A stretch of DNA of 64,000 nt from Beroe forskalii (lineage: Eukaryota; Ctenophora; Nuda; Beroida; Beroidae): contig WFMF01000206.1 in the NCBI GenBank assembly GCA_011033025.1, positions 124,001 through 188,000 on the forward strand, given 5' to 3'. Position numbers and translations under genes: made by a program. A model generated the notes under the pieces. It made no database searches, had not been told where the DNA came from, and saw only the letters and a program-made list of their open reading frames with translations. Below, one piece after another: positions 1-64,000 of the stretch (positions are counted from its first letter, which is position 1; each line of letters starts with the position of its first letter).

Positions 1-324
1 GCCACGTTCAGCAATTCACTGTGAGGCTCAGGAACATGATATCAAAAATCTATGATCAACCTACACTGCAGAATTTTATCCTCTATCGATTCCCGAAGGC
101 CCCAAGTCTCTATCTTCAAAAATGTGGACCTCTATAAAGAAAAACCCCGAGAGGGTGTAAAAAAGCACATCACTGTCTACGAAAGAGGCACCGCAGCACT
201 GTTACGTGACAACAACCAATGCGCGCGTGCGCTGTGTGTGGCGGATGCGAGAGAGCAGACAAATCCTGTCCCCGTTCGCCTCCGTGTGCCCGCTCGTGCG
301 TGTGTTTGGCTTGTTACCGTTTTC
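1..324 (+). repeat. Left terminal inverted repeat of copy 1 (partial), T-to-C hypermutated
   Basis: This segment is the reverse complement of 3020-3590 and matches 20301-20624. Between 100 and 291 it differs from the copy 3 left arm at 16 sites, all T to C, plus a 1-base deletion. The open frame through it is not conserved as protein in the arms and is not treated as a gene. Confidence 0.85.
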
Positions 325-659
325 GCATGGTTTTCGCCTTTCTTTCAACCTTTACACGGGTCATTTTGTGGCTTGAACATGTTAAGTACAGTAACCCTTG
401 TATGGAAACTGTATACTTTTGCTATTTTTCTATGTAACTACTAAGCTAACTTTAGAAATGGCCATTCAAACAGTGAACAACCTACAAATGCTACTCAAGG
501 GCCCGTATGCAGAAATGAGGGATTCCCTATAAAATTGGGAAAAGGTCCAAAAGTTGTGATAATGCTTCAAATAAGGGAAATGCTCGAAAAGTCACGGAAG
601 AGTTTGCTTGAAGAGCTAGGGGCTTCTCTAATTAGGTACGGGAGGGTTGTTCATTGTTC

Positions 660-1240
660 AGATGTGGAATATGAGTGAAGAGGGGTGTGTTATGAGTTGA
701 TAGGGGTGGGATATGAGTAAATAGGGTTGTGTTATGAGTGGAAAGGGGTGGGTTATGAGTGGAGGGTGGGTTATGCGTGGAGAGGGGTGTGTTTTGAGTA
801 AATAGGGTGGGTGATGAGTGGAGGGGGTTGGTTGTGAGTGGAGAGGGGGTGTGTTTCGAGTAAATTGGGAGGGATATGAGTAAATAGGGTGTGTTATGAC
901 TTGAAAGGGGTGGTATATGAGTGGAGAGGTGTATTATGAGTTGAGAGTGGTGTGTTATGAGTGGAGAGAGGTGTGTTATGAGTGAAGAGGGTGTATTATG
1001 AGGATAGAGGTGTGTTATGAATGGAGAGGTGTGTTATTAATTGATAGGGGCGTGTTATGAGTGGAGAGGGGTTTGTTATGAGTGGAGAGGATGCGTAAAA
1101 GGTGTTATGAGTAAATAGTGGTGTGTTATGAGTTGAGAGTGGTGTGTTATGAGTGGAGAGGGGTGTGTTATGAGTTGATAGGGGCGTGTTATGAGTGGAA
1201 AGAGGTGTGTTGTGAGTGGAGAGAGGTGTGTTATGAGTTC
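660..1240. repeat. 21-bp minisatellite A (copy 1)
   Basis: Tandem units of about GGTGTGTTATGAGTGGAGAG with a 21-bp period. Because 21 is a multiple of three, the minus strand reads as a heptapeptide repeat (HNTPLST). The left part is more degenerate and uses GAGTAAATAGGG variants. Confidence 0.9.
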
Positions 1241-1360
1241 TGCAGTCTTTGTAATTAGTCCGTTTAGGCAATTTATTTGATTCCACTATCTTGTTAATTT
1301 AATTTCATTGATTAAAACCAAGGATATGGCAGGCATCAATTTTGTCTCCTGCCGCAACGC

Positions 1361-1693
1361 CTAACTGCCAAAGCCTAATACAATCGCAAGGTCAAGGAGG
1401 TACACCTCACTAATTTTACTCTTCATGAACTCGCTAAACTGCCCTGATTTAACAGTACAAGGCAACGACAGCAGCTGTAATGCAAAGAACACGTCATAGT
1501 CTTCTTTTTGTAGCCTTCTCGCACTCCTGAACAACTCTATTGTACTTCTGAGCAACCCACTCAGACTCCCGAGCAATCCTCTTGTACTAATAGTAATGGG
1601 CAGCCGGGCATCCAAGTAACCGTGTATCACACCCCTTAGTAATCTTATCACACTCCTAGGTAAGCCTATCACTCTCCTAAACAAGCCCGTCAC
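1361..1693 (-). pseudogene. Element-borne reading-frame remnant (copy 1)
   Basis: The minus strand encodes a non-repetitive stretch including RRLQKEDYDVFFALQLLSLP and then CTVKSGQFSEFMKSK. The same stretch is at 7986-8300, and in shifted form at 21633-21857. Here a few missing bases shift the end of the frame. Its conservation suggests descent from a coding sequence, either the element's own or captured. I recognise no domain. Confidence 0.4.
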
Positions 1694-2224
1694 ACCCTAA
1701 GTACCTAAGTAAGCCCGTCACACTCCTTAGTTAGCCTATCACACTCCTAAGTAAGCCTATCGGACTCCTTAGTAAGTTAGTAAGCCTATCACACGCCTAA
1801 GTAAGGCTATCGGACTCCTTAGTAAGCCTATCACACGCCTAAGTAAGCCTATCACACTCCTTATTAGCCCTATCCCTCCCTAAGTTAGCCTATTACACTC
1901 CTAAGTTAGCCTATCACACTCCTAAGTAAGCTAAGTAAGCTTATCGGACTCCTTAGTAATCCTATTAAACGCCTAAGTAAGCCTATCACACTCCTTAGTT
2001 AGCCTATCACACTCCTAAGTAAGCCTATCACACTCCTAAGTAAGCTTAGTAAGCCTATCGGACTCCTTAGTAATCCTATTAAACGCCTAAGTAAGCCTAT
2101 CACACTCCTATGTATGTAATTAAACTGTAATTATAATTATATTTCTATTTCTCCACTCCTAAGTAAGCCTATCAAACTCCTAAGTTAGCCTATCACACTC
2201 CTAAGTAAGCCTATCGGACTCCTC
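1600..2224. repeat. 21-bp minisatellite B (copy 1)
   Basis: Tandem units AAGTAAGCCTATCACACTCC(T), alternating with a CTATCGGACTCCTTAGTAAG variant. The period is about 21 bp and is interrupted by an AT-rich segment near 2105-2155. The same array occupies the same place in copies 2 and 3. Confidence 0.9.
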
Positions 2225-2813
2225 ATAACCCGAAATACATGGTAAATACTAAGGGAAAGCATGAGGGAATCCCTCAAAAAGACGTGCTTTTGGTGAGGGT
2301 TTCCTTCTCATTTTATGCTTTTCCCCTTCTATTATAAGGGATTCCCTTATTTTTATAGCAATTTCCTATATTAGCCACTTTTCACCACACCTCTTCCAGG
2401 AGCTCTATCTTGGAACTGTGAGCAGATTTCTGTGCCCTATAAGATAGCTTTTTCACACGAGCAATGAGCATGGATGCCTTGGACCCCAACTAGTCGGCAC
2501 ATACCGCGGTACGTACCGCGGTATAGCTGATTGTTATGATGTTCCGTGGTACATACCCCGGAACATATCCTAACTAGTCGGCACATACCGCGGTACGTAC
2601 CGCCTTTACTACATTAAGAGTCAAAGCCACCAGATTCAAACTCCGACCTTCCACAACCAATGGCAAACAGATTCAAGGCAACAAAAGTCACCAGTATCTC
2701 AGTATAAGACAAGCTGAGTCAAGGCAGCGTAACCAGTGTCAAGCCAGAGAGTCAGAGCAAACAACGCATCGCATGGCAGCAGCAAGGAAATGATTTCTAC
2801 TTATGAGATGGGT

Positions 2814-2977
2814 GTTGACCCCTGGTGGGTGATGGTCACGTGACCCATATGACTATCATGCAAGGTTGGACAGATTGAGACTGTCTGGTAGGACTGACTG
2901 GGTGTCTGGTTCGCTCAATGTATGTCAGGCCAATAGGTCACGTGACCGGTGACCAGCAGGGGTCAACACCCATCTCA
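2814..2977. repeat. Inverted repeat with CACGTG motifs inside copy 1
   Basis: The ends are TGAGATGGGTGTTGACCCC and its inverse. Just inside are two GGTCACGTGACC palindromes, which are perfect E-box cores. It resembles a small MITE. It lies next to the right arm and is also present at 23371-23537; in copy 2 the left half is lost. Confidence 0.7.
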
Positions 2978-3019
2978 TTATAGAACTTTCTCAAATAAAC
3001 CTCCATTCATTGCCTAATT

Positions 3020-3590
3020 GAAAACGGTAACAAGCCAAACACACGCACGAGCATACACACAGAAACGAACTGGGAACAAGATCCGTCTGCTCTCTCGCAT
3101 CCACCACACACAGCACACGCGCGCATTGGTTATTGTCACGTAACAGTGCTGCGGTACCTCTTTCGTAGACAGTAATGTGCTTTTTTACACCCTCTCGGGG
3201 TTTTTCTTTATAGAAATCCACATTTTTGAAGATAGAGACCCGGGACCTTCGGGAATCGATGGAGGATAGAATTCTGCAGTGTGGGTTGATCATAGATTTT
3301 TGATATCATGTTCCTGAGCTTCACAGTGGGTCGCTGAGCGTGGCGCTACTGGAAAACCTTGTTTTCTGCTGCGAGGTGTTATTGATCATAACTTCTGACA
3401 TTAAAGCCCTATTCCGATGATCTTTACACTATTGAACTCCCTGTGCTGTGCTCTATTGAATGGCCATCTTCCAGATCACTCTATCTGAAGTTTAGTCCAT
3501 GAAATGGGGCAATATCGTTGCAAAATTGCTGCGTTTCCCAAAACTGCGCACAAAGTACTAGCAGCTGCGGTACCTCGCGTTCCGGGGGTG
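3020..3590 (-). repeat. Right terminal inverted repeat of copy 1
   Basis: 571 bp, from GAAAACGGTAAC to CGCGTTCCGGGGGTG, the inverse of the left arm. The flank to the right starts AAATAGG. The sequence is close to the arm consensus. Confidence 0.85.
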
Positions 3591-6672: not shown

Positions 6673-6993
6673 CACCCCCGGAACGCGAGGTACCGCAGCT
6701 GCTAGTACTTTGTGCGCAGTTTTGGGAAACGCAGCAATTTTGCAACGATATTGCCCCATTTCTGAAGGTCCCAAGTCTCTATCTTCAAAATGTGGATTTC
6801 TATAAAGAAAAACCCCGAGAGGGTGTAAGGGAGTGCATTGCTGTCTGCGAAGGAGGTGCCGCAGCGCTGTTGCGTGACAGTGGCCAGTGCGCGCGTGTGC
6901 TGTGTGTGGTGGATGCGAGAGAGCGGACGGGTCTTGTCCCCTGTTCGTTTCTGTGTGTTTGCTCGTGCGTGTGTTTGGCTTGTTACCGTTTTC
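6673..6993 (+). repeat. Left terminal repeat of copy 2, shortened and A-to-G hypermutated
   Basis: 321 bp; the part between CCCATTT and GAAGGTCCC is deleted relative to the 571-bp arms. From 6829 to 6931 it differs from the copy 3 left arm at 18 positions, every one A to G, with no other change in that stretch. Confidence 0.88.
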
Positions 6994-7324
6994 GCATGGT
7001 TTTCGCCTTTCTTTCAACCTTTACACGGGTCATTTTGTGGCTTGAACATGTTAAGTACAGTAACCCTTGTATGGAAACTGTATACTTTTGCTATTTTTCT
7101 ATGTAACTACTAACTTTAGAAATGGCCATTCAAACAGTGAACAACCTACAAATGCTACTCAAGGGCCCGTATGCAGAAATGAGGGATTCCCTTAAAATTG
7201 GGAAAAGGTCCAAAAGTTGTGATAATGCTTCAAATAAGGGAAATGCTCGAAAAGTCAGGGAAGAGTTTGCTTGAAGAGCTAGGGGCTTCTCTAATTAGGT
7301 ACGGGAGGGTTGTTCATTGTTCAG

Positions 7325-7922
7325 ATGTGGAATATGAGTGAAGAGGGGTGTGTTTTGAGTAAATAGGGGTGGGATATGAGTAAATAGGGTTGTGTTATGA
7401 GTGGAAAGGGGTGGGTTATGAGTGGAGAGGGGTGGGTTATGCGTGGAGAGGGGTGTGTTTTGAGTAAATAGGGGTGGGTGATGAGTGGAGGGGGGTTGGT
7501 TATGAGTGGAGAGGGGTGTGTTTCGAGTAAATTGGGGAGGGATATGAGTAAATAGGGTGTGTTATGACTTGAAAGGGGTGGTATATGAGTGGAGAGGGGT
7601 GTATTATGAGTTGAGAGTGGTGTGTTATGAGTGGAGAGAGGTGTGTTATGAGTAGAAAGGGGTGTATTATGAGTGGATAGAGGTGTGTTATGAATGGAGA
7701 GGGGTGTGTTATTAATTGATAGGGGCGTGTTATGAGTGGAGAGGGGTTTGTTATGAGTGGAGAGGGATGCGTAAAAAGGGGCGGGTTATGAGTAAATAGT
7801 GGTGTGTTATGAGTTAAGAGTGGTGTGTTATGAATGGAGAGGGGTGTGTTATGAGTTGATAGGGGCGTGTTATGGGTGGAAAGAGGTGTGTTGTGAGTGG
7901 AGAGAGGTGTGTTATGAGTTCT
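7325..7922. repeat. 21-bp minisatellite A (copy 2)
   Basis: Same GTGTTATGAGTGGAGAGG unit as in copy 1, here with fewer deletions, so the minus-strand heptapeptide frame runs further. Confidence 0.9.
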
Positions 7923-7985
7923 GCAGTCTTTGTAATTAGCCCGTTTAGGCAATTTATTTGATTCCACTTTCTTGTTAATTTAATT

Positions 7986-8300
7986 TCATTGATTAAAACC
8001 AAGGATATGGCAGGCATCAATTTTGTCTCCTGCCGTATCGCCTAACTGCCAAAGCCTAATTCTATCGCAAGCAAGGTCAAGGAGGTAGACCTCACTAATT
8101 TTACTCTTCATGAACTCGCTAAACTGCCCTGATTTAACAGTACAAGGCAACGACAGCAGCTGTAATGCAAAGAACACGTCATAGTCTTCTTTTTGTAGCC
8201 TTCTCGCACTCCTGAACAACTCTATTGTACTTCTGAGCAACCCACTCAGACTCCCGAGCAATCCTCTTGTACTAATAGTAATGGGTAGCCAAGTATCCAA
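7986..8300 (-). pseudogene. Element-borne reading frame (copy 2, most intact)
   Basis: Minus-strand frame of about 104 codons. It includes TIELFRSARRLQKEDYDVFF, then SGQFSEFMKSKISEVYLLDL and DACHILGFNQ before a stop. The sequence is shared with copies 1 and 3 and is not made of the minisatellite units. It could be the remnant of an element protein or of a captured exon. I do not recognise it. Confidence 0.45.
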
Positions 8301-8304
8301 GTAA

Positions 8305-8938
8305 CCGTATCACACCCCTTAGTAATCTTATCACACTCCTAGGTAAGCCTATCACTCTCCTAAGTAAGCCCGTCACACTCCTAAGTACTTAAGTAAGCCT
8401 ATCACACTCCTAAGTTAGCCTATCACACTCCTAAGTAAGCCTATCGGACTCCTTAGTAAGTTAGTAAGCCTATCACACGCCTAAGTAAGGCTATCGGACT
8501 CCTTAGTAAGCCTATCACACGCCTAAGTAAGCCTATCACACTCCTTAGTTAGCCTATCACACTCCTAAGTTAGCCTATTACACTCCTAAGTTAGCCTATC
8601 ACACTCCTAAGTAAGCTAAGTAAGCTTATCGGACTCCTTAGTAATCCTATTAAACCTATCACACTCCTTAGTTAGCCTATCACACTCCTAAGTAAGCCTA
8701 TCACACTCCTAAGTAAGCTTAGTAAGCCTATCGGACTCCTTAGTAATCCTATTAAACGCCTAAGTAAGCCTGTCACACTCCTATGTATGTAATTAGACTG
8801 TAATTATAATTATATTTCTATTTCTCCACTCCTAAGTAAGCCTATCAAACTCCTAATTTAGTCTATCACACTCCTAAGTAAGCCTTATCACACTCCTAAG
8901 TTAGCCTATCACACTCCTAAGTAAGCCTATCGGACTCC
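8305..8938. repeat. 21-bp minisatellite B (copy 2)
   Basis: CTATCACACTCCTAAGTAAG units with CTATCGGACTCCTTAGTAAG variants. The order of variants is close to that in copy 1, so the arrays descend from one array already present in the ancestral element. Confidence 0.9.
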
Positions 8939-9218
8939 TCATAACCCGAAATACATGGTAAATACTAAGGGAAAGCATGAGGGAATCCCTCAAAAAGACG
9001 TGCTTTTGGTGAGGGTTTCCTTCTCATTTTATGTGTTTCCCCTTCTATTATAAGGGATTCCCTTATTTTTATAGCAATTTCCTATATTAGCCACTTTTCA
9101 CCACACCTCTTCCAGGAGCTCTATCTTGGAACTGTGAGCAGATTTCTGTGCCCTATAACTCTATAAGATAGCTTTTTCACACGAGCAAGGAGCATGGATG
9201 CCTTGGACCCCAACTAGT

Positions 9219-9254
9219 CGGCACATACCGCGGTACGTACCGCGGTATGTGCCG
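9219..9254. repeat. 36-bp perfect palindrome (copy 2)
   Basis: A perfect self-complementary sequence from CGGCACATACCGCGG to its inverse, containing two CCGCGG sites around a GTAC centre. It is identical at 23066-23101. It is followed by a second, imperfect palindrome (AACATGTTCCG ... CGGAACATAT). Confidence 0.85.
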
Positions 9255-9682
9255 ATTAGTTAGAACATGTTCCGTGGTACATACCCCGGAACATATCCTA
9301 ACTAGTCGGCACATACCGCGGTACGTACCGCCTTTACTACATTAAGAGTCAAAGCCACCAGATTCAAACTCCGACCTTCCACAACCAATGGCAAACAGAT
9401 TCAAGGCAACAAAAGTCACCAGTATCTCAGTATAAGACAAGCTGAGTCAAGGCAGCGTAACCAGTGTTTTGAAGGACGTCATGTTATTATTGTTAGAGTG
9501 TCGTCACACAATCATAATTATGACTATACTATCGCAACATTCATACATGTTTCTACTCCTCTCTAAAATGGGAACGTACTGTAATAACCAGCCACCACCA
9601 AGTGCTATTCAAGTTCTTAAGTATTTTTAGGCACATTTCTTCAAGGAGTAACCTTGCATATCAATGGGAATTGGGGATAATA

Positions 9683-10261
9683 CCTTAGTGGTAGAAATTA
9701 AGAAGTGTACTATTTAAGGCAGTAAGCGATTTTACTACCTTAAATAGTACACTCCTTAAATTCTACAAATCTTAATTTCTACCTACCGTAATTTTTACAA
9801 TACCAAAATTTTAGAAAATTTTGCTAAAGTAAAGATTTATAAATTTATACCTATCTTTTCTTTCACTACAATATTAAGCATTCTATTTTCTCTCAATACA
9901 GGTTCAGAATTTTTTTCAAATCAAATTTGATATGATAAACAATTATCACTCGATAAAAATTATAGGCATTTCTTCAGCTTCTTCGTCTTCATTGACCCGT
10001 TTGCTAATCTGTTTCTCTAGAACGCATAGTTTTTACTTTTGTCTCTATTTCATAGATTCCAAATAATCAAATAGATTGAATTCAATGAAAAAAATCTGCC
10101 CTCTCCTTGTTTTCATATCGGTATTTTTGGCTGAAAATTGGTGAAACGACGAAATTTAGTCCTTATAGATTTGCCTGATTTTGGAGAAATTTTACCTTAA
10201 TTAGTACACTTTTAATTAGTACGTCCTTAATAAATACACTTCTTAATTTCTACCACTAAGG
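9683..10261. mobile_element. TA-flanked MITE (579 bp), nested in copy 2
   Basis: The terminal inverted repeats start CCTTAGTGGTAGAAATTA and TA lies directly outside both ends. This matches Tc1/mariner-type insertion. There is no coding frame. Inside the ends are repeated AATTAAGAAGTGTAC-like blocks in both orientations. A relative is at 42642-43420. Confidence 0.82.
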
Positions 10262-10929
10262 TATGCAAGCATTTTGATTGAATTATGAAATAGGTCAGAG
10301 CATAGCGTGGAGAGGAACAGGACACCCGCTCTCTCTAAATAGTGCCAATTCGATTATCTACCTCCCCACTTCACTGTTGGACTAACATGAAAATGACTAA
10401 CATGCTTTTGCAACGCAACATACAATAATACAGTGGGTTGCCTAGATCTGGGCAACCTGACATACAAATATGAACGGGGTTGCCTGTTTCTGAAACTTGA
10501 GCTCCCTAGCAGAGGAGGAGCAATATGCAATAGCATTTGTAAACAGTGATGAACAGTGTCCACTAGCGACTGGTCAATGTATACAATCGGAACTGTTGAT
10601 TAATTTCACAATTTTATTTCTGTGGATGTTTGTTGTCAACCGTCAAGCAGGTCACATGTTAGTAATTTTGTCCTTTTATTATCCTAGATGTTAGTACAAT
10701 ATGTTGCATAAGTTGCCTGGGTTTTTGAATGGGGACCCCTGGTGGGTGATGGTCACGTGACCCATATGACTATCATGCAAGGTTGGACAGATTGAGACTG
10801 TCTGGTAGGACTGACTGGGTGTCTGGTTCGCTCAATGTATGCCAGGCCAATAGGTCACGTGACCAGCAGGTGTCAACACCCATCTCATTATAGAACTTTC
10901 TCAAATAAACCTCCATTCATTGCCAAATT

Positions 10930-11493
10930 GAAAACGGTAACAAGCCAAACACACGCACGAGCATACACACAGAAACGAACTGGGAACAAGATTTGTCTGC
11001 TCTCGCATCCACCACACAGCACACGCGCGCATTGGTTATTGTCACGTAACAGTGCTGCGGTACCTCTTTCGTAGACAGTAATGTACTTTTTTACACCCTC
11101 TCGGGGTTTTTCTTTATAGAAATCCACATTTTTGAAGATAGAGACTTTGGGACCTTCGGGAATCGATAGAGAATAAAATTCTGCAGTGTAGGTTGATCAT
11201 AGATTTTTGATATCATGTTCTGAGCTTCACAGTGAATCGCTGAACGTGGCGCTGGAAAACCTTGTTTTCTGCTGCGAGGTGTTACTGATCATAACTTCTG
11301 ACATTAAAGCCCTATTCCGATGATCTTTACACTATTGAACTCCCTGTGCTGTGCTCTATTGAATGGCCAACTTCCAGATCACTCTATCTGAAGTTTAGTC
11401 CATGAAATGGGGCAATATCGTTGCAAAATTGCTGCGTTTCCCAAAACTGCGCACAAAGTACTAGCAGCTGCGGTACCTCGCGTTCCGGGGGTG
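10930..11493 (-). repeat. Right terminal inverted repeat of copy 2
   Basis: 564 bp, inverse of the left arm with a few small deletions. It is not hypermutated: A residues changed in 6829-6931 are unchanged at the equivalent positions here. Confidence 0.87.
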
Positions 11494-20053: not shown

Positions 20054-20624
20054 CACCCCCGGAACGCGAGGTACCGCAGCTGCTAGTACTTTGTGCGCAG
20101 TTTTGGGAAACGCAGCAATTTTGCAATGATATTGCCCCATTTCATGGACTAAACTTCAGATAGAGTGATCTGGAAGATGGCCATTCAATAGAGCACAGCA
20201 CAGGGAGTTCAGTGGTGTAAAGATCATTGGAATAGGGCTTTCATGTCAGAAGTTATGATCAATAACACCTCGCAGCAGAAAACAAGGTTTTCCAGTAGCG
20301 CCACGTTCAGCGATTCACTGTGAAGCTCAGGAACATGATATCAAAAATCTATGATCAACCTACACTGCAGAATTTTATCCTCTATCGATTCCCGAAGGTC
20401 CCAAGTCTCTATCTTCAAAAATGTGGATTTCTATAAAGAAAAACCCCGAGAGGGTGTAAAAAAGTACATTACTGTCTACGAAAGAGGTACCGCAGCACTG
20501 TTACGTGACAATAACCAATGCGCGCGTGTGCTGTGTGTGGTGGATGCGAGAGAGCAGACAAATCTTGTCCCCTGTTCGTTTCTGTGTGTTTGCTCGTGCG
20601 TGTGTTTGGCTTGTTACCGTTTTC
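20054..20624 (+). repeat. Left terminal inverted repeat of copy 3
   Basis: 571 bp, ending GTTACCGTTTTC. Near consensus; used here as the reference for judging changes in the other arms. Confidence 0.9.
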
Positions 20625-20937
20625 GCATGGTTTTCGCCTTTCTTTCAACCTTTACACGGGTCATTTTGTGGCTTGAACATGTTAAGTACAGTAACCCTTA
20701 TATGGAAACTTGTATACTTTTGCTATTTTTCTATGTAACTACTAACTTTAGAAATGGCCATTCAAACAGTGAACAACCTACAAATGCTACTCAAGGGCCT
20801 GTATGCAGAAATGAGGGATTCCCTTAAAATTGGGAAAAGGTCCAAAAGTTGTGATAATGCTTCAAATAAGGGAAATGCTCGAAAAGTCAGGGAAGAGTTT
20901 GCTTAGGTACGGGAGGGTTGTTCATTGTTCAGATGTG

Positions 20938-21570
20938 GAATATGAGTGAAGAGGGGTGTGTTTTGAGTAAATAGGGGTGGGATATGAGTAAATAGGGTTG
21001 TGTTATGAGTGGAAAGGGGTGGGTTATGAGTGGAGAGGGGTAGGTTATGCGTGGAGAGGGGTGTGTTTTGAGTAAATAGGGGTGGGTGATGAGTGGAGAG
21101 GGGTTGGTTATGAGTGGAGAGGGGTGTGTTTCGAGTAAATTGGGTTGGGATATGAGTAAATAGGGTGTGTTATGACTTGAAAGGGGTGGTATATGAGTGG
21201 AGAGGGGTGTATTATGAGTTGAGAGTGGTGTGTTATGAGTGGAGAGAGGTGTGTTATGAGTAGAAAGGGGTGTATTATGAGTGGATAGAGGTGTGTTATG
21301 AATGGAGAGGGGTGGTTATTAATTGATAGGGGCGTGTTATGAGTGGATAAAGGTGTGTTATGAGTGGAGAAGGGTGTGTTATGAGTGGAGAGGGGTTTGT
21401 TGAGTGGAGAGGGATGCGTAAAAAGGGGCGGGTTATGAGTAAATAGTGGTGTGTTATGAGTTGAGAGTGGTGTGTTATGAGTGGAGAGGGGTGTATTATG
21501 AGTTGATAGGGGCGTGTTATGAGTGGAAAGCGGTGTGTTGTGAGTGGAGAGAGGTGTGTTATGAGTTCTG
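20938..21570. repeat. 21-bp minisatellite A (copy 3)
   Basis: GTGTTATGAGTGGAGAGG units. The minus strand is open for over 160 codons as a heptapeptide repeat because of the 21-bp period. It is not considered a gene. Confidence 0.9.
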
Positions 21571-21632
21571 CAGTCTTTGTAATTAGTCCGTTTAGGCAAT
21601 TTATTTGATTCCACTATCTTGTTAATTTAATT

Positions 21633-21857
21633 TCATTGATTAAAACCAAGGATATGGCAGGCATCAATTTTGTCTCCTGCCGTAACGCCTAACTGCCAAA
21701 GCCTAATCCTATCGCAAGCAAGGTCAAGGAGGTAGACCTCACTAATTTTACTCTTCATGAACTCGCTAAACTGCCCTGATTTAACAGTACAAGGCAACGA
21801 CAGCAGCTTGTAATGCAAAGAACACGTCATAGTCTTCTTTTTGTAGCCTTCTCGCAC
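21633..21857 (-). pseudogene. Element-borne reading-frame remnant (copy 3)
   Basis: Shares SLPCTVKSGQFSEFMKSKIS, then EVYLLDLACDRIRLWQLG and DACHILGFNQ with copy 2. A one-base insertion shifts the upstream half. Confidence 0.4.
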
Positions 21858-21944
21858 TCCTGAACAACTCTATTGTTCTTCTGAGCAACCCACTCAGACT
21901 CCCGAGCAATCCTCTTGTACTAACAGGGTAGCCAAGTATCCAAG

Positions 21945-22437
21945 TAACCGTATCACACTCCTTAGTAATCTTATCACACTCCTAGGTAAGCCTATCACTC
22001 TCCTAAATAAGCCCGTCACACTCCTAAGTACTTAAGTAAGCCTATCACACTCCTAAGTTAGCCTATCACACTCCTAAGTAAGCCTATCGGACTCCTTAGT
22101 AAGCCTATCACACGCCTAAGTAAGCCTATCGGACTCCTTAGTAATCCTATCATCACACGCCTAAGTAAGCACACTATTACACCTCCTAAGTTAGCCTATC
22201 ACACTCCTAAGTAAGCTAAGTAAGCCTATCGGACTCCTTAGTAATCCTATTAAACGCCTAAGTAAGCCTATCACACTCCTATGTATGTAATTAGACTGTA
22301 ATTATAATTATATTTCTATTTCTCCACTCCTAAGTAAGCCTATCAAACTCCTAAGTTAGTCTATCACACTCCTAAGTAAGCCTTATCACACTCCTAAGTT
22401 AGCCTATCACACTCCTAAGTAAGCCTATCGGACTCCT
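21945..22437. repeat. 21-bp minisatellite B (copy 3)
   Basis: Shorter array of the CTATCACACTCCTAAGTAAG unit with the CGGACTCCTTAG variants. Confidence 0.9.
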
Positions 22438-23065
22438 CAGTAACCCGAAATACATGGTAAATACTAAGGGAAAGCATGAGGGAATCCCTCAAAAAGACGT
22501 GCTTTTGGTGAGGGTTTCCTTCTCATTTTATGCTTTTCCCCTTCTATTATAAGGGATTCCCTTATTTTTATAGCAATTTCCTATATTAGTATATTAGCCA
22601 CTTTTCACCACACCTCTTCCAGGAGCTCTATCTTGGAACTGTGAGCAGATTTCTGTGCCCTATAAGCAGGCCCGTAGATAGGATTTTAATCCGGGAGGGG
22701 CCCTCGAGCCGCGAGAACTCCGAAGTGAGCAATCCTGCGGGGCGCAGCCTATGCGGGGTCCAGGGCATGGAAAAAATACATGGTAAATACTAAGGAAAGC
22801 TAACGAAGAAATGTCAAAAGACGTGCGATTTTGGTGAGGGTTTAGAGCATCAAATATGTTTTCAATCAATTATAAACGAGATTTAACAGTTATAGTAATT
22901 TCAAATTGCCACTTTTCACCTCAATAGGAAACATGATTAGCCCTATTCACACTTTTTTTTGAAATGGAACATATCCCAACTAGTCGGCAGCCCCCGGTTC
23001 TGTAACTCTATAAGATAGCTTTTTCACACGAGCAATGAGCATGGATGCCTTGGACCCCAACTAGT

Positions 23066-23101
23066 CGGCACATACCGCGGTACGTACCGCGGTATGTGCC
23101 G
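23066..23101. repeat. 36-bp perfect palindrome (copy 3)
   Basis: Identical to 9219-9254; followed by a related imperfect palindrome with AACATGTTCCG/CGGAACATGTT arms. Confidence 0.85.
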
Positions 23102-23370
23102 ATTAGTTAGAACATGTTCCGTGGCACATACCCCGGAACATGTTCTGACTAGTCGGTACATACCGCGGTACGTACCGCCTTTACAACATCAAGAGTCAAA
23201 GCCACCAGATTCAAACTCCGATCTTCCACAACCAATGGCAAACAGATTCAAGGCAACAAAAGTCACCAGTATAAGACAAGCTGAGTCAAGGCAGCTTAAC
23301 CAGTGTCAAGGCAGAGTGTCAGAGCAAAAAACGCATCGCATGGCAGCAGCAAGGAAATGATTTCTACTTA

Positions 23371-23537
23371 TGAGATGGGTTTTGACCCCTGGTGGGTGCT
23401 GGTCACGTGACCCATTTGACTAGCATGCAAGGTTGGACAGATTGAGACTGTCTGGTAGGACTGATTGGGTGTCTGGTTCGCTCTATGTATGCCAGGCCAA
23501 TAGGTCACGTGACCAGCAGGGGTCAACACCCATCTCA
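23371..23537. repeat. Inverted repeat with CACGTG motifs inside copy 3
   Basis: Same structure as 2814-2977, with two GGTCACGTGACC sites and TGAGATGGGT ends. Confidence 0.7.
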
Positions 23538-23579
23538 TTATAGAACTTTCTCAAATAAACCTCCATTCATTGCCTAATT

Positions 23580-24150
23580 GAAAACGGTAACAAGCCAAAC
23601 ACACGCACGAGCAAACACACAGAGGCGAACAGGGGACGGGATTTGTCTGCTCTCTCGCATCCGCCACACACAGCGCACGCGCGCATTGGTTGTTGTCACG
23701 TAGCAGTGCTGCGGTGCCTCTTTCGTAGACAGTGATGTACTTTTTTACACCCTCTCGGGGTTTTTCTTTATAGAAATCCACATTTTTGAAGATAGAGACT
23801 TGGGACCTTCGGGAATCGATAGAGGATAAAATTCTGCAGTGTAGGTTGATCATAGATTTTTGATATCATGTTCCTGAGCTTCACAGTGAATCGCTGAACG
23901 TGGCGCTGCTGGAGGGCCTTGTTTTCTGCTGCGGGGTGTTGTTGATCATGGCTTCTGACATGAAAGCCCTATTCCAATGATCTTTACACCACTGAACTCC
24001 CTGTGCTGTGCTCTATCGAATGGCCATCTTCCAGATCACTCTATCTGAAGTTTAGTCCATGAAATGGGGCAATATCGTTGCAAAATTGCTGCGTTTCCCA
24101 AAACTGCGCACAAAGTACTAGCAGCTGCGGTACCTCGCGTTCCGGGGGTG
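23580..24150 (-). repeat. Right terminal inverted repeat of copy 3, A-to-G hypermutated
   Basis: 571 bp, inverse of 20054-20624. Between 23624 and 23951, eighteen A residues of the arm consensus read G on the plus strand. The reverse direction is almost absent. Confidence 0.88.
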
Positions 24151-34089: not shown

Positions 34090-34987
34090 AAGTATTATAA
34101 GCAGGGGTCTGGGGGCGGCAGCCCCCAGAGGCCAAAGGTCTGGAGTATAACGAAATGGCAACTCAATAGTGTTTGGGCATTGTTTCAAACTTAACAGCAC
34201 TGTTGTTGCTGTCATAAACAATCCCAATGAATATAATCATATTAAGAATCAAAGGGGCAGCAGGGGTCTGGGGGCGGCAGCCCCCAGAAACCGGAGGTCT
34301 AGAGTATTTAGGAAATGGCAACTCTTGAATAGTGTTTGGGCATTGTTTTAAATTTAGCAACACTGTCGTTGCTGTCGTAAAAAATCCCAATGAATATCAC
34401 CATATTGAGAATCAAAGTGGCAGCAGGGGTCTGGGGGCGGCAGCCCCCAGAAGCCGGAGGTCTAGAGTATAAAGAAATGGCAACTCAATAGTGTTTGGGC
34501 ATTGTTTTTCAATTTAACAGCGCTGTTGTTAATGTTGTACAAAATCTCAACAAATATAAAATCAAAAGAGCAGCAGGCCGGGTCTGGGGGCGTCAGCCCC
34601 CAGAAGTCAGAGGTCCGGAGTATAAATAAATGACAACTCGATAGTGTGTGGGCATTGTTTTTCAATTTAATAGCGCTGTTGTTGCTGTCGAACATAATCT
34701 CAATAAATATAAAATCAAAAGAGCAGCAGGGGTCTGGGGGCGGCAGCCCCCAGAAGCCAGAGGTCTGGAGTATAAAGAAACCACAACTCAATAGTGTTTG
34801 GGCATTGTTTTTCAATTTAACAGCGCTGTTGTTGCTGTTGTACAAAATCTCAACAAATATAAAATCAAAAGAGCAGCAGGCCGGGTCTGGGGGCGTCAGC
34901 CCCCAGAAGCCAGATGTCCGGAGTATAAATAAATGACAACTCGATAGTGTGTGGGCATTGTTTTTCAATTTAATAGCGCTGTTGTTC
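34090..34987. repeat. About 150-bp tandem repeat with GGGGGCGGCAGCCCCC palindrome
   Basis: Six units, each with TCTGGGGGCGGCAGCCCCCA, then a GGTCTGGAGTATAAAGAAAT-like segment and an AACAGCGCTGTTGTTGCTGT-like segment. The array resumes at about 37835-38080 after the LINE insertion and recurs inverted at 47430-47940. Confidence 0.85.
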
Positions 34988-37835
34988 ATCATCATCAAAA
35001 GAGAGGCCGGACCCGAAGGTCCGCAAGAGGATAGTCCCGGAGTGGGACTGTGCCTGCCTCTGGTCGCCGAGGCGACGGGGGGTGAGGGTGAAAGGTGATG
35101 GTGGTGGTGGGAAAATGAGGGTGTGGCTAGCGAGGGGAGAATACCTTACCAATACAATACCAGATACTTCAGAGCTATCGGAGAGATGAGTAGATGCTAT
35201 GTCACCCTGTATTGTCCGCCTCCTCTCTGTTCGTTGTAGTCTTTGGTTTGGAGTGTAACTGATCAGTGCGTCCATACTGTTGTTGTCCATGATGTCGTTA
35301 ATGGAGTCATAGTATGTCCCGAGTGTGTTGCCTCTGATTCTCATAAATGCAGGGCATTGTCCAATGAAGTGTGCAACTGTCTCCTCTGTGTCAGTGCAGT
35401 AAGGGCAGTTTGGTGTGTCAGCGTGTTATTCTGTACAAGTGTTTGTTCAGTCCTATGTGTCCTGTGATAATGGAGATAGCAGTTCGGTACCGGATACGGT
35501 TGCCTGTGTTGTTGTTAAGTGAAAAACCTTCTTCTGATGGTTACCTATGATCATGTCAGTGTGAGCATGTTTGTTGGTGATCCACCTGTCGTGGCTGAGG
35601 TTGGTTACCTTGGTATTGATTAAGTGTTTGATGAATGAAATGGGGACAAGGCTTGGTGACGGGGTTACTATCTTTGGTACCAGCCTTGGCAAGCTGGTCT
35701 GCTTTCTCGTTTCCCCAGTGTCCGATGGGCTTTTATCCATCTGACTTGGACTGTGTTGTCATGAGCTAGGAGGTGAGTGACTTGTGACAGTCTGCAACTG
35801 ATTTGTTCCTGTGGATTCTGTTGGAAAGAGCTTGGAGTGCCGATAGGCTGTCGCCCAGAAGGTGATTAGCTTGTTGTTGTGGTGTTTAAGTCTGTCAGCA
35901 GCATGCATAAGTGCTGCTATCTCGGCCTGAAAAACCGTGCAGTGATCTTTCATCTTGAAGTGGTACTCGGTTGTGTTCTCGTTGTGGGGGTCCTTGATGA
36001 CGCAGCGCCGCCGCCCACCCCCGTGGTCTGTTTTTAGAGCCATCTGTAGCAGCAAATGTTGTTGACGCTGATAAGCTTGATGTCATTGTCCAGGTTGTTG
36101 GTGAAGTCAGGAGTGAGCGTCTTGAGGGTATGTTATGTTATAGTTGCGGTCAAAAGAATAAGATGGGGTTTAATAGTGTCCCATTGGTTGTGCCCTGGGA
36201 CTTTGAGCTCAGAAATTAGGTTGTTTGATATGGTGCTATGAGCTTTAGTAGATTCCCTTTGCCGGTGGGGGCTGTTTCTAGGGTCCAATCTCCGTACCCC
36301 TATGAGCCTGACTGCTCCCTTGGCTTCACCTTTGAGGTAGTGGTCAGTGGTAATGGGAGGTATACTAGTGAGGTGTTAAGAGTGTTGTAAGGTGTGGAAG
36401 GTAGGGCTCCAGTCATATGCCTGGAGTGAGAGTCCTTGAACTCTTTCAAGTTTCTTGGTATTGGATTTGTTGTCTGTTGCCTTGATCCAGACAACAGCGC
36501 TGTATGCCAGCGCTGGTCTAATAATGGAGGTGTAAATCCACTTGCATACTTTAGGAGTAAGTCCCCATGTGGGGGCCTATGGCTCGCTTGCATTGGAAGA
36601 TAGTCCTATGCATTTTTGGTAATGTTGTCGATGTGTGAGTTAAAGTTGAGTTTGTTGTCCAGTGTTACTCCAAGAAGCTTTGCTTTACTGAGCTCAATAG
36701 TTGAGCCCATTACTTTGATTTCTCATGTAAGGTCCACTTTCTGTTCCATGAACATGACTAGTTTGGTTTTGAGAGCGCTGATGATGTTGAGTCCTTCGAC
36801 TCACACCATGTCTCAATAGTCTTGATGGTGGTCTGTGTTCTCTGCCAGATGACGTCGAGGTCATCCCCCTTCTGCTAGTGACATTAAGTCATCAGCAAAA
36901 GCCTGCAGATAGCCTGAATGTGCTTTTGCTGTGTGTACTGAAGGAGGTCATCCAGCACAAGATTCCAGAGGAAGGGTGAGAGAATGCCTCCTTGGGGCAG
37001 CCTCTTTTAATTCTGATCCTTCTTGAGGAGTTTTTTTGAGTGAGATTGTAAACATTTCTGTTAGTGACCATTCCTTGATCCAGCCATTTTAATGCTTGGG
37101 TCTAGGGGACTTGTCGATGGCTTCCGAGATAGCTTTGAAGGACACATTGTCGAAGGCCCCTTCTGATGTCAAGGAAGGTGCCTAGAACATATCCCTTATT
37201 GGCTATTCTCTTCTCGATCTTGTGGATGACTTTGTGGAGAGCTGTTTCCAGTTGAGGTGCCTTTCTTGAAGCCAAACTGCTTTTTGCTAAGTTTGTCCTC
37301 CATGCCAAGGTCATGCTGCATATGCCAAAGGATTATCTTTTCCTGTAGCTTGAGGAGAGTAGGTGAGAGTGTAATAGTGCGGAAAGCGTTGGGTTTGTTA
37401 TAGTCAGTCTTTTCCAGGTTTGGGGATGAAGATGCCGTTGGATTCGGTCCAAGGTTTGGGAACGTGCTGCATTTCATGACTTTTGATCATGATTGTCTTC
37501 ACAGCGATATTGATGTGCTTCCACGCTTGTTGAATTGTGATTGGCTGGAAGTGTGTCTGGGTCCAGCTGCTTTGAGGGGTCGAAGGACATTATTGCTTCC
37601 TTCATTCTTGTGTCACTGTAAATATTGTCTAGAAGATGTGTGTCTGGGATAGTATGGTCTGTATGAGGATTAGAGGTAGCATCATCTTTGAAATGACTTC
37701 TCTCCATAACCTCGAGTGTCTCTTCCGGTGTGGTCGTGAGGGTGCCATCTGATTTGTAGACAGATTCTAGCTTCTCTGTCTTGTCATTGCAATTTTTGAG
37801 AATTTTGTTCATTGCTGTTCATTTTGTTCATTTTG
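34988..37835 (-). pseudogene. 5'-truncated non-LTR retrotransposon with RNase H domain
   Basis: The minus strand reads, with frameshifts and stops, as a reverse transcriptase followed by RNase H. Landmarks: KPNAFRTITLSPTLLKLQEK (about 37300-37400), the catalytic AFADDLMSLAEGG (about 36870-36905), LGVTLDNKLNFNSHIDNITK (about 36610-36670), and VFQAEIAALMHAADRL of RNase H (about 35880-35930). A C-terminal RNase H points to the I/R1-type groups. The endonuclease region is absent, as expected of 5' truncation. The 3' end has a short GAT-repeat tail near 34990. It interrupts the hAT tandem array. Confidence 0.8.
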
Positions 37836-52270: not shown

Positions 52271-52540
52271 CGTTAAAAAGCCAAAAATCGTGAACAAATT
52301 CCATCATAAAACAGCAAAATCATAAAACTAAATTAAGCCCACATAAACCCCCAAAAATTAAACCCCCATTTGCCATTTTTCTATATTTACCGGGTGTTTA
52401 TGGGGGTTGGCCCCCTAGATAACGTGCTAGATATACCATTATTTACAGTTTAATTTTCATAATATCAAAGTTATATCATTGAGTAATTGAACCCAATTAA
52501 CTTTAAACCTATTTACCACTCTCAAATCTCAATCCCTAGG

Positions 52541-54850
52541 ATGTTTTTCTTGATACTCTTGGCTCTGATTTCAACTGGAGCGTCAACTGAAGCCTGCGCA
52601 TCAAAAAATTTAAACTTTGCAAATCTGAGGTCTTTGTTCCACGAAAAAGTTGCAGAATTCAAAAAGCTCAGAATTGAGAACGGCCTGGCATTAGCCGACG
52701 ACAGCCAGCACTTTAAGATATTCGTTAAGGCAGTCAAGTTCATAACGAAGCTGAATGAGAGACCGAGCATGAAATGGAAGGCAGTTCTCAATCTCTTCTC
52801 GATGATGACAGAGGAGGAGCAGGACCTGTATCATGGGATCAACAGCACCAAAGTTAGTTCGGATTCGGGGCCGCCACCACCGACCCGGCGAAGGCGGGAT
52901 CTGTCCCGCACCCTGCGGGATGCAAAAGAGGACAAAACCCCCGTGATCAATGTGGACAAGGACACAGTAGACTGGACCCACAAAATACCCCCTGTCAAAG
53001 ACCAAGGTGGCTGTGGGAGCTGCTGGGCTTTTAGTGGAACTGTCTCAGCTGAGTACCAACTCAACAAAGACAAAGACGACATCACCTCGCTCTCAGATCA
53101 GCAGTGCGTGGACTGTGCCTACTCTGAAACTGCCAATGGGTGCGGGGGAGGGTGGCCGGATGCCTGCTGGGCCATGGTCCGGGATAACGGGAACATGGCT
53201 GCTTCTATCGACGACTACGACCCTTACCGGGCCAGTGATGGCCCCTGTAAGACTGACCAGGTCACAAAGTCCGCTATGGGAGAATACCATGTCCTTGGGT
53301 GGAAGTGGGCGCATGGTGGTAACGAAGCTGTGAGACAGATGGTAGCAAACCCTAAAATAGGGGTTACAACGGTCCTAGTAATGGCTAATTCTCCATTTGC
53401 CTACTACGGCAGCGGGATATTCTACGATGAAGAATGCTACAGCTATAACCACGGTGTAGCAGTAGTGGGGTACGGGACTGAAAACGGGGAACAGTACTGG
53501 AAGGTAAGGAACAGTTGGGGCACATGGTGGGGAGAAGGTGGCCACATCAGGATGAAACGAGGTCCAGGCATCAGCACCTGTAACATCGTCACCTGGCCCG
53601 AAATTTCATGGATAGTGAAGGACGAGGAGCTGGACACCTTCTACAACATGAACGAGGTGGGAAAAGAGTGCATTATCAGTGAAGAGCCTAATGGATACTG
53701 GTACCGTGGCACAGTGAGTGTCACCAAGTCCGGGAAGAGGTGTCAGAACTGGTTGAGCATGACCCCCAACGTCCACACCACCACACCAGAAGCCCACTAC
53801 CACACCGGACTCGGAGATCACAACTACTGCCGGAACCCGGACCGATCCCCGGAACCTTGGTGCTACAACGGGGAAGGAACGGACCCTGTTAGGGAGGCTT
53901 GCAACGTTCCCATGTGCGAGTGCATGTTCCAGGTGGCCACCAAAGAAACGAAGACGATGAGTAGAAGTGAGGCAGTGGCTGAGTGTAACAAGGACTTGAT
54001 GTGTACAGGGGTTAGGTGTGATGGTAACGATTACTGCTGGACTATACAAGATAGTGACGAGGGGTGGGATGTCGTGGTGGGAGTTTATAACAAAGGAGGG
54101 GATTCTTGCGACGTCTACCCGACCTACCCTGATCCAAAAAACGACACGGAACCTTGTGAGTGGCAATGGAGTGTGTTGGAAAAGGGGACTAAGATCTACG
54201 ATACCCTGGACAAAGCCAAGTATCAGTGTGAGGCGAGAGAGGGTGAGTGTGTGGGTGTTTCGTGTGAAGGTCCCACCAATTGCTGGCTAAACCTGGCTTC
54301 TCATGATGATAACTTTGCAAAGGAGCCCGCCCTGTATGGCAATTTCTGTGATGGTGATGGTAAAGGTATTGAGGACGGTCCAGGATATGGCATGGAGTTG
54401 GGAAAGGAGTGCCAGGAGTCATGGGATGGATCTGGAGCTTCCTACAGGGGAACAATGAACACCACTGCGTCCGGACTCCCTTGTCAGAAGTGGACGAGTC
54501 AGAAACCCAACGATCACTCCCGGACACCTGAATACAATCCGGGCAAAGGGATTGGGGATCACAACTACTGCCGAAATCCGGACTATGAGCAATGGCCGTG
54601 GTGCTACAACGGAGACAGCGCCAGCCCCCGGTATGAGAGGTGTGACCTCCCAAGCTGTCCGAAGTGTGAGTGGGTGGTTGCTCAGGAGGGGGACGAGACC
54701 TTGGGTCGGAGAGAGGCTGTCGGGAAGTGTGTCTTGGAAAAGGGATGTGCCGGGTTCTCGTGTAAGAGTGATACAGATTGCTGGATCCACACTTCCAAGG
54801 CAGGAAAGAAGAAGCCTAGCATTTACACCATGAAATGCACACCAGTTTAA
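52541..54850 (+). CDS. Secreted papain-family (C1A) cysteine protease with two kringles
   Basis: A single exon of 769 codons. The start chosen is the ATG at 52541, which gives an immediate signal peptide (MFFLILLALISTGASTEACA); the frame is open further 5' but without an ATG. A divergent I29-like propeptide (about residues 28-105, LFSMMTEEE) ends before a furin-like RRRR (about 115-118). The C1A domain has the oxyanion Gln155, catalytic Cys161 in GGCGSCWAF, His304 in NHGVAVVGYG and Asn324 in RNSWG, so it should be active. Kringle 1 spans about 377-459 and kringle 2 about 624-706, each with six Cys and HNYCRNPD...PWCYN. A Cys-rich module (C-x-G-x-x-C...CW) occurs three times: twice between the kringles and once at the end. 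Kringles usually bind proteins or lipids, so I infer targeting of the protease outside the cell. It is intronless among intron-rich genes, which may mean a retrocopy. It is GC-richer than its surroundings. Confidence 0.93.
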   Translation: MFFLILLALISTGASTEACASKNLNFANLRSLFHEKVAEFKKLRIENGLALADDSQHFKIFVKAVKFITKLNERPSMKWKAVLNLFSMMTEEEQDLYHGINSTKVSSDSGPPPPTRRRRDLSRTLRDAKEDKTPVINVDKDTVDWTHKIPPVKDQGGCGSCWAFSGTVSAEYQLNKDKDDITSLSDQQCVDCAYSETANGCGGGWPDACWAMVRDNGNMAASIDDYDPYRASDGPCKTDQVTKSAMGEYHVLGWKWAHGGNEAVRQMVANPKIGVTTVLVMANSPFAYYGSGIFYDEECYSYNHGVAVVGYGTENGEQYWKVRNSWGTWWGEGGHIRMKRGPGISTCNIVTWPEISWIVKDEELDTFYNMNEVGKECIISEEPNGYWYRGTVSVTKSGKRCQNWLSMTPNVHTTTPEAHYHTGLGDHNYCRNPDRSPEPWCYNGEGTDPVREACNVPMCECMFQVATKETKTMSRSEAVAECNKDLMCTGVRCDGNDYCWTIQDSDEGWDVVVGVYNKGGDSCDVYPTYPDPKNDTEPCEWQWSVLEKGTKIYDTLDKAKYQCEAREGECVGVSCEGPTNCWLNLASHDDNFAKEPALYGNFCDGDGKGIEDGPGYGMELGKECQESWDGSGASYRGTMNTTASGLPCQKWTSQKPNDHSRTPEYNPGKGIGDHNYCRNPDYEQWPWCYNGDSASPRYERCDLPSCPKCEWVVAQEGDETLGRREAVGKCVLEKGCAGFSCKSDTDCWIHTSKAGKKKPSIYTMKCTPV

Positions 54851-62004: not shown

Positions 62005-64000
62005 TGAAATATGAGTAGTGGTTGTGAAATAGTGAAATCAGAGGTCTGTACAACAGTACTATCAAGGTATGGTGAAATCCATAATAAACATGATAAGAAG
62101 TGGGACTAGCTCCTTCTACGATACCATCAAGGTATGAGTAGTGGTTGTGAAATAGTGAAATCAGAGGTCTGTACAACAAAAATTATCAAAGGTATGAGTA
62201 GTGATAGTGAAATAGTGAAATCAGAGTCTGTACAACAATTACTATCAAGGTATGAGTAGATTGTGAAATAGTGAAATCAGAGGTCTGTACTACAGTACTA
62301 TCAAGGTATGAGTAGTGGTTTGTGAAATAGTGAAATCAGAGGTCTGTACAGAGTACTAACAAGGTATGAGTAGTGGTTGTGAAATAGTGAAATCAGAGGT
62401 CTGTACAACAGTATATCAAGGTATGAGTAGTGATAGTGAAATGAAATCAGAGGTCTGTATTACAGTACTATCAAGGTATGAGTAGTGGTTGTGAAATAGT
62501 GAAATCAGAGGTCTGTACAACAGTACTATCAAGGTATGAGTAGTGGTTGTGAAATAGTGAAATCAGAGGTCTGTGTTACAGTACTATCAAGGTATGAGTA
62601 GTGGTTGTGAAATAGTGAAATCAGAGGTCTGTACAACAGTACTATCAAGGTATGAGTAGTGGTTGTGAAATAGTGAAATCAGAGGTCTGTACTACAGTAC
62701 TATCAAGGTATGAGTAGTGGTTGTGAAATAGTGAAATCAGAGGTCTGTACAACAGTACTATCAAGGTATGAGTAGTGGTTGAAATAGTGAAATCAGAGGT
62801 CTGTACAGTACTATCAAGGTATGAGTAGTGATTGTGAAATAGTGAAATCAGAGGTCTGTACAACAGTACTATCAAGGTATGAGTAGTGATTGTGAAATAG
62901 TGAAATCAGAGGTCTGTACTACAGTACTATCAAGGTATGAGTAGTGATAGTGAAATAGTGAAATCAGAGGTCTGTAATACAGTACTATCAAGGTATGAGT
63001 AATGGTTGTGAAATAGTGAAATCAGAGGTCTGTACAACAGTACTATCAAGGTATGAGTAGTGGTTGTGAAATAGTGAAATCAAGATCTGTACAACAGTAC
63101 TATCAAAGGTATGAGTAGTGGTTGTGAAATAGTGAAATCAGAGGTCTGTACAACAGTACTATCAAGGTATGAGTAGTGGTTGTGAAATAGTGAAATCAGA
63201 GGTCTGTACAACAGTACTATCAAGGTATGAGTAGTGGTTGTGAAATAGTGAAATCAGAGGTCTGTACAACAGTACTATCAAGGTATGAGTAGTGGTAGTG
63301 AAATAGTGAAATCAGAGGTCTGTACAACAGTACTATCAAGGTATGAGTAGTGGTTGTGAAATAGTGAAATCAGAGGTCTGTACAACAGTACTATCAAGGT
63401 ATGAGTAGTGGTTGTGAAATAGTGAAATCAGAGGTCTGTACAACAGTACTATCAAGGTATGAGTAGTGGTTGTGAAATAGTGAAATCAGAGGTCTGTACA
63501 ACAGTACTATCAAGGTATGAGTAGTGGTTGTGAAATAGTGAAATCAGAGGTCTGTACAACAGTACTATCAAGGTATGAGTAGTGGTTGTGAAATGTGAAA
63601 TACAACAGTACTATCAAGGTATGAGTAGTGGTTGTGAAATAGTGAAATCAGAGGTCTGTACAACAGTACTATCAAGGTATGAGTAGTGGTTGTGAAATAG
63701 TGAAATCAGAGGTCTGTACAACAGTACTATCAAGGTATGAGTAGTGGTTGTGAAATAGTGAAATCAGAGGTCTGTACAACAGTACTATCAAGGTATGAGT
63801 AGTGGTTGTGAAATAGTGAAATCAGAGGTCTGTACAACAGTACTATCAAGGTATGAGTAGTGGTTGTGAAATAGTGAAATCAGAGGTCTGTACAACAAGC
63901 TATCAAGGTATGGTGGTTGTGAAATAGTGAAATCGAGTCACAGTACTATCAAGGTATGAGTAGTGATTGTGAAATAGTGAAATCAGAGGTCTGTACAACA
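62005..64000. repeat. 58-bp satellite array, open at the right edge
   Basis: Unit GTATGAGTAGTGGTTGTGAA, then ATAGTGAAATCAGAGGTCTG and TACAACAGTACTATCAAG; about 34 units. Units near the left edge are divergent and indel-bearing. Those from about 63110 on are nearly identical, apart from a few deleted units near 63590 and 63895. This is as expected for an array homogenised away from its edge. Confidence 0.95.

Follow-up and report, generated by a model that had tools for sequence, protein, structure and literature searches.

Why should one arm of a DNA transposon differ from its sister arms, over about a hundred bases, by A-to-G changes only? This question is raised by a stretch of the genome of the ctenophore Beroe forskalii (contig WFMF01000206.1 of assembly GCA_011033025.1, positions 124,001 to 188,000 of the forward strand). 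The whole 64,000-nt stretch is called the window below, and all positions refer to it. The initial annotation described dense A-to-G hypermutation in the left arm of one element copy and read it as a trace of ADAR-like adenosine deamination. Mutated and unmutated arms lie side by side in this element, which makes the question testable by the alignment of genomic copies. The published articles cited here are represented by the parts of their text that were available, and what is said of them applies to those parts.

Three copies of one element are present in the window (Table 1). With its inverted termini and target-site duplication, the element is a terminal-inverted-repeat DNA transposon, and it may be a non-autonomous one. 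All five visible element ends share 47 bp without a mismatch. Copies 2 and 3 are flanked on either side by ATA, which fits a 3-bp target-site duplication; the right flank of copy 1 starts with AAA, and the left end of this copy is outside the window. The arms had been annotated as 571 bp long and able to form a near-perfect RNA duplex. This holds for copy 3, with 571-bp arms and a predicted duplex of 570 pairs, but not for copy 2, whose left arm measures 321 bp; as 249 bp are missing from it, the arms of copy 2 alone would pair over only ~200 pairs.

The interior of the element consists largely of tandem repeats with 21-bp spacing. One tandem-repeat open reading frame in the element (20929-21315) matches the herpesvirus GP350 Pfam model at 28.4 bits against a cut-off of 26.4 bits, and is probably a low-complexity match. 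About 1.2 kb of copy 2 (9467-10725) is absent from copies 1 and 3. Twelve open reading frames of at least 110 aa were placed in or across the copies, and none of the 10 that were scanned against Pfam matched a transposase. Further copies were sought with arm patterns in prokaryote genome and viral contig collections and with one interior pattern in viral contigs only, with 0 matches, a result that says little about an animal element, as only prokaryote and virus sequences were scanned and only exact matches counted. Elsewhere in the window, long tandem arrays spaced at 21 bp and 58 bp extend from 58312 to the window end at 64000. A 787-aa open frame at 52487-54850 encodes a papain-family protease domain together with kringle domains, a combination that is unusual to our knowledge and that points to an animal genome.

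Table 1. Element copies and single-type substitution patches in the window
Feature	Position	Strand	Description
Element copy 1	1..3590		Truncated at the start of the window; arms 1-324 (left, remnant) and 3020-3590 (right)
Element copy 2	6673..11493		Left arm 6673-6993, lacking 249 bp internally; right arm from about 10930 to 11493
Element copy 3	20054..24150		Arms 20054-20624 and 23580-24150, 96% complementary
Patch in copy 1 left arm (c1L)	100..291	-	16 T-to-C on the + strand, equal to A-to-G on the - strand; a single base deleted, otherwise unchanged
Patch in copy 1 right arm (c1R)	3261..3338	+	6 A-to-G
Patch in copy 2 left arm	6829..6931	+	18 A-to-G; nothing else changed
Patch 1 in copy 3 right arm (c3R)	23624..23734	+	10 A-to-G
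Patch 2 in copy 3 right arm (c3R)	23908..23951	+	8 A-to-G

For the analysis of the substitutions, the six arms were aligned to the left arm of copy 3 and the majority base was taken as the reference; the right arm of copy 2 was compared to arm position 511 only. The majority is tied in four columns (arm positions 159, 161, 175, and 189), none of them inside a patch; in these four columns, the two arms of copy 3 agree together against the right arms of copies 1 and 2. Against this reference, the hypermutation at 6829-6931 is confirmed in the assembled sequence as it had been described. All 18 substitutions within the 103 bp are A-to-G and there is no indel. The annotated polarity is also borne out, with G derived by majority: each of the 18 sites is covered by all five other arms, which unanimously carry A at 16 of them, while the right arm of copy 1 has G as well at 6929 and 6930. 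The interior of copy 2 has 11 private changes in about 2460 bp, a rate at which 0.46 private substitutions are expected in 103 bp (Poisson P about 1e-22); the comparison behind this baseline uses 76 changes in all and omits arm changes, flanks, and the copy 2 changes at 10298-10871, a region that is badly aligned at 10298-10733. No changed A follows a G, as had been noted (5' neighbours A 9, T 6, C 3, G 0), and 8 of the 14 unchanged As in the patch do (Fisher P = 0.0003). Self-folding of the mutated stretch of this arm is nothing unusual (z -0.9).

The majority is modest proof of ancestry because the arms are all within 24 kb and partly homogenised. Being also few, they leave some room for a reversed polarity, in which G or C would be ancestral and the other arms would have changed through cytosine deamination. 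We consider this very improbable, given the A carried by every other arm at nearly all of the sites and an ancestral block that would have to differ from arm to arm. Editing by APOBEC or AID enzymes leaves derived C-to-T or G-to-A changes in TC, CC, or WRC contexts. Here the derived state is G, and when the sites are read in reverse, the 18 cytosines are preceded by G 7 times, T 6 times, A 3 times, and C twice (CpG at 3/18), with no preference of the APOBEC or AID kind.

The annotation had placed the hypermutation in the left arm of copy 2 alone. It does occur there, but three further arms are changed in the same way, on either strand (Table 1). Over the five patches in four arms, 58/58 substitutions are of a single type within their patch. 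No patch is seen in the right arm of copy 2 or the left arm of copy 3, which have 3 and 5 differences from the majority, respectively. The right arm of copy 1 has, outside its patch, one A-to-G change at 3179 and T-to-C pairs at 3083-3084 and 3240-3241. Ordinary divergence is ruled out by the density and purity of the patches. Gene conversion from a diverged relative is ruled out as their origin, since mixed types would be expected, though it may have moved patches; for GC-biased gene conversion, a mixture of A-to-G and T-to-C within a patch would be expected, and this process is ruled out as well.

The bias belongs to the arms rather than to the copies as wholes. Private A-to-G and T-to-C changes make up 67 of the 75 substitutions in the arms versus 35 of the 112 in the interiors, and the interiors of the same copies have an ordinary substitution spectrum. 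When the window was compared with itself (256 alignments, each no shorter than 80 bases and no less than 80% identical), same-type runs of at least six appeared in 14 alignment rows, all between element copies and all A/G or C/T; the rows overlap, and thus they are not 14 independent patches. One same-type run of 19 extends one site past the arm. Outside arm-arm comparisons, the longest same-type run is 5 (98 of the 256 alignments, 2913 mismatches). It is located at 1609-1716 in the interior of copy 1, and three runs of 4 are found in repeats at 34 and 47 kb. The surrounding 1601-1717 contains 8 AT-to-GC transitions on mixed strands (5 T-to-C, 3 A-to-G) in and beside a tandem array. It was excluded as a patch since the tandem array makes the alignment unsafe, and it counts mildly against a strict arms-only rule.

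ADARs favour A and T over C, and C over G, as the 5' neighbour of the edited A, and G as its 3' neighbour. Pooling the five patches gives 58 mutated and 88 unmutated As, with 27/36 mutated after A, 18/29 after T, 10/47 after C, and 3/34 after G. When each arm site is counted once, the fractions are 24/31, 15/24, 8/34, and 3/30, respectively, with P = 2e-5 for G versus the rest and P = 2e-9 for A/T versus C/G; C and G do not differ significantly (P = 0.14). Patch by patch, the depletion of 5' G is significant on its own in the left arm of copy 2, while the other four patches give P = 0.08, 0.15, 0.15, and 0.29. An excess of 3' G is absent (8/58 mutated versus 24/88 unmutated As). This does not speak in favour of ADAR, and we have treated the 3' G as a weaker, enzyme-dependent feature. 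Overall, a 5' G precedes 3/58 mutated As (5%) versus 31/88 unmutated As (35%); in ADAR-type clusters of cDNA, the reported values are 7.85% versus 30.3% (PMC2873906).

The neighbour order also bears on a serious rival that involves no ADAR, in which a Pol iota-like polymerase would fill a gap in an arm and place G opposite template T, giving A-to-G on the new strand. Inverted arms are break-prone, which supports such gap filling, and the strand bias, purity, and shortness of the patches would all be accounted for. In mammals, the enzyme incorporates G opposite T with a higher frequency than A (PMC3031609). On the other hand, the dependence on the 5' neighbour is strong, with 45/65 As mutated after A or T versus 13/81 after C or G. 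We know of no such property of Pol iota, and this polymerase adds few bases at a time, so we judge this origin improbable. Pol eta has a hotspot that likewise places A or T before the mutated A, a point against the ADAR reading, but it is too accurate and its errors are too mixed for it to be the source.

The edges of the patches and the state of the partner arms constrain the mechanism further. In copy 2, 18/24 As without a 5' G are mutated inside the patch, compared with 0/18 just to its left and 0/1 to its right. The left edge is sharp; it is the only testable one, as a single such A lies right of the patch. The partner arm keeps the original base at 18/18 sites for copy 2 left, 18/18 for copy 3 right, 6/6 for copy 1 right, and 14/16 for copy 1 left. 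With the partner bases intact, the changes look like short patches in a single arm.

The patches are read from the assembled sequence, and assembly is difficult in inverted and tandem repeats. Sequencing, polishing, or assembly errors in the inverted repeats, or edited RNA reads taken into the assembly, could produce them in principle. Same-type clusters are a known artefact of sequencing traces, but of the G-to-A type (PMC2873906). A context-driven caller error should affect arms alike if they share sequence and orientation, but the left arm of copy 3 and the right arm of copy 2 are free of patches. Furthermore, patches are carried on both strands and their neighbour order is enzyme-like. We therefore regard an artefact as quite unlikely. 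The A-to-G patches are real, repeated in other arms of the window, and unusual.

Taken together, the uniform chemistry, the one strand affected in each patch, the ADAR-like order of 5' neighbours, and the restriction of pure patches to arms able to pair fit adenosine deamination of a duplex. By a somewhat better than even judgement, we read the patches as a DNA record of ADAR-type deamination on arm duplexes, by one of two routes. The annotated proposal of deamination in hairpin RNA or in a hybrid stands in part. The derived G, the one-strand A-to-G changes, the recurring 5' order, the pure patches confined to the arms, and the mostly intact partners agree with it; a sharp edge and a single mutated arm are not expected from the editing of a whole hairpin, and the 3' G is not in excess. 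The edge and the single arm thus call for a patch-wise transfer or a local hybrid.

By the first route, transcripts of the element or read-through RNA would form arm:arm double-stranded RNA, in which As would be converted to inosine with the neighbour preference of ADAR. Reverse transcription or RNA-templated repair would then carry the edited RNA into the chromosome in patches of ~40-190 bp, converting one arm. We infer all three elements of this route, namely the enzyme, its RNA substrate, and the step from RNA to DNA. This edited-RNA route is a possibility to which we lean only tentatively, and the same tentative standing applies to the broader proposal that the chromosomal DNA of inverted transposon arms is recurrently rewritten from ADAR-edited RNA. 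In arm coordinates, the T-to-C blocks of copies 1 and 3 fit together almost as tiles (c3R 200-243 and 417-527, c1R 253-330 and 412, c1L 346-538), as if gene conversion had handed out one edited molecule in pieces. Eight mutated sites are common to c1L and c3R (context-stratified P = 0.025), and the patches may consequently not be independent, which the once-per-site counts correct in part. Pieces resembling a broken LINE are found at 34970-37818 on the minus strand, where RVT_1 (E 0.019) and RVT_3 matches are below the Pfam cut-off. Such a remnant is no more than a hint of past reverse transcriptase activity in this genome.

By the second route, RNA would invade an arm as an R-loop, ADAR would deaminate deoxyadenosines in the DNA strand of the hybrid, and replication would fix G. 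One strand, one arm, and sharp edges would be accounted for without reverse transcription. According to a review that cites Zheng 2017, ADARs edit As of a DNA strand that is paired with RNA in a hybrid (PMC8072771), and such editing would yield one-strand A-to-G changes in DNA. However, full-length ADAR1p110 was inactive on matched telomeric RNA:DNA hybrids and required A-C mismatches, and fixed patches in transposon arms are not described in the available part of that work (PMC7955049). The R-loop also gives no reason for the restriction of the patches to inverted arms. We consider it rather unlikely, its likelihood being a share of that given to ADAR-type deamination as a whole and not an addition to it. 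The edited-RNA route is favoured over it partly on account of the unedited matched hybrids.

Among known systems, the hyper-editing of inverted-repeat double-stranded RNA by ADARs in animals (PMC9989829, PMC4323055) resembles the present case in its one-strand A-to-G clusters, its depletion of 5' G, and its targeting of a DNA transposon's long inverted repeats. In the available text it is an RNA phenomenon, whereas the patches here are part of the genomic DNA, have a sharp edge, and affect a single arm. The editing of retroelement DNA by APOBECs likewise leaves one-strand clusters of a single type in mobile elements, but these are G-to-A changes from cytosine deamination during reverse transcription (PMC2873906), as opposed to A-to-G changes in a DNA transposon. 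The A-to-G hypermutation of measles virus and LCMV is similarly dense, in RNA genomes rather than a DNA element (cited in PMC8072771). The nearest prior work is a survey of trace archives, which, in its available part, reports ADAR-type clusters in cDNA traces and no excess of A-to-G clusters in human and Xenopus DNA traces of high quality (PMC2873906); the latter result counts against an ADAR reading in DNA. No natural example of A-to-G patches in DNA transposon arms was found in the titles and abstract starts retrieved by searches of the open-licence PMC literature.

ADARs are described as a metazoan innovation that is present in sponges and ctenophores (PMC4323055). A-to-I editing in animals, sponge and ctenophore included, is directed primarily at repeats, with DNA transposons among the most editable (PMC9989829). 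Fixed ADAR-like A-to-G patches would mean that edited RNA has been copied back, or that ADAR has edited chromosomal DNA in the germ line. If edited RNA is recurrently copied back in this way, RNA editing would be a germline mutator of DNA transposons.
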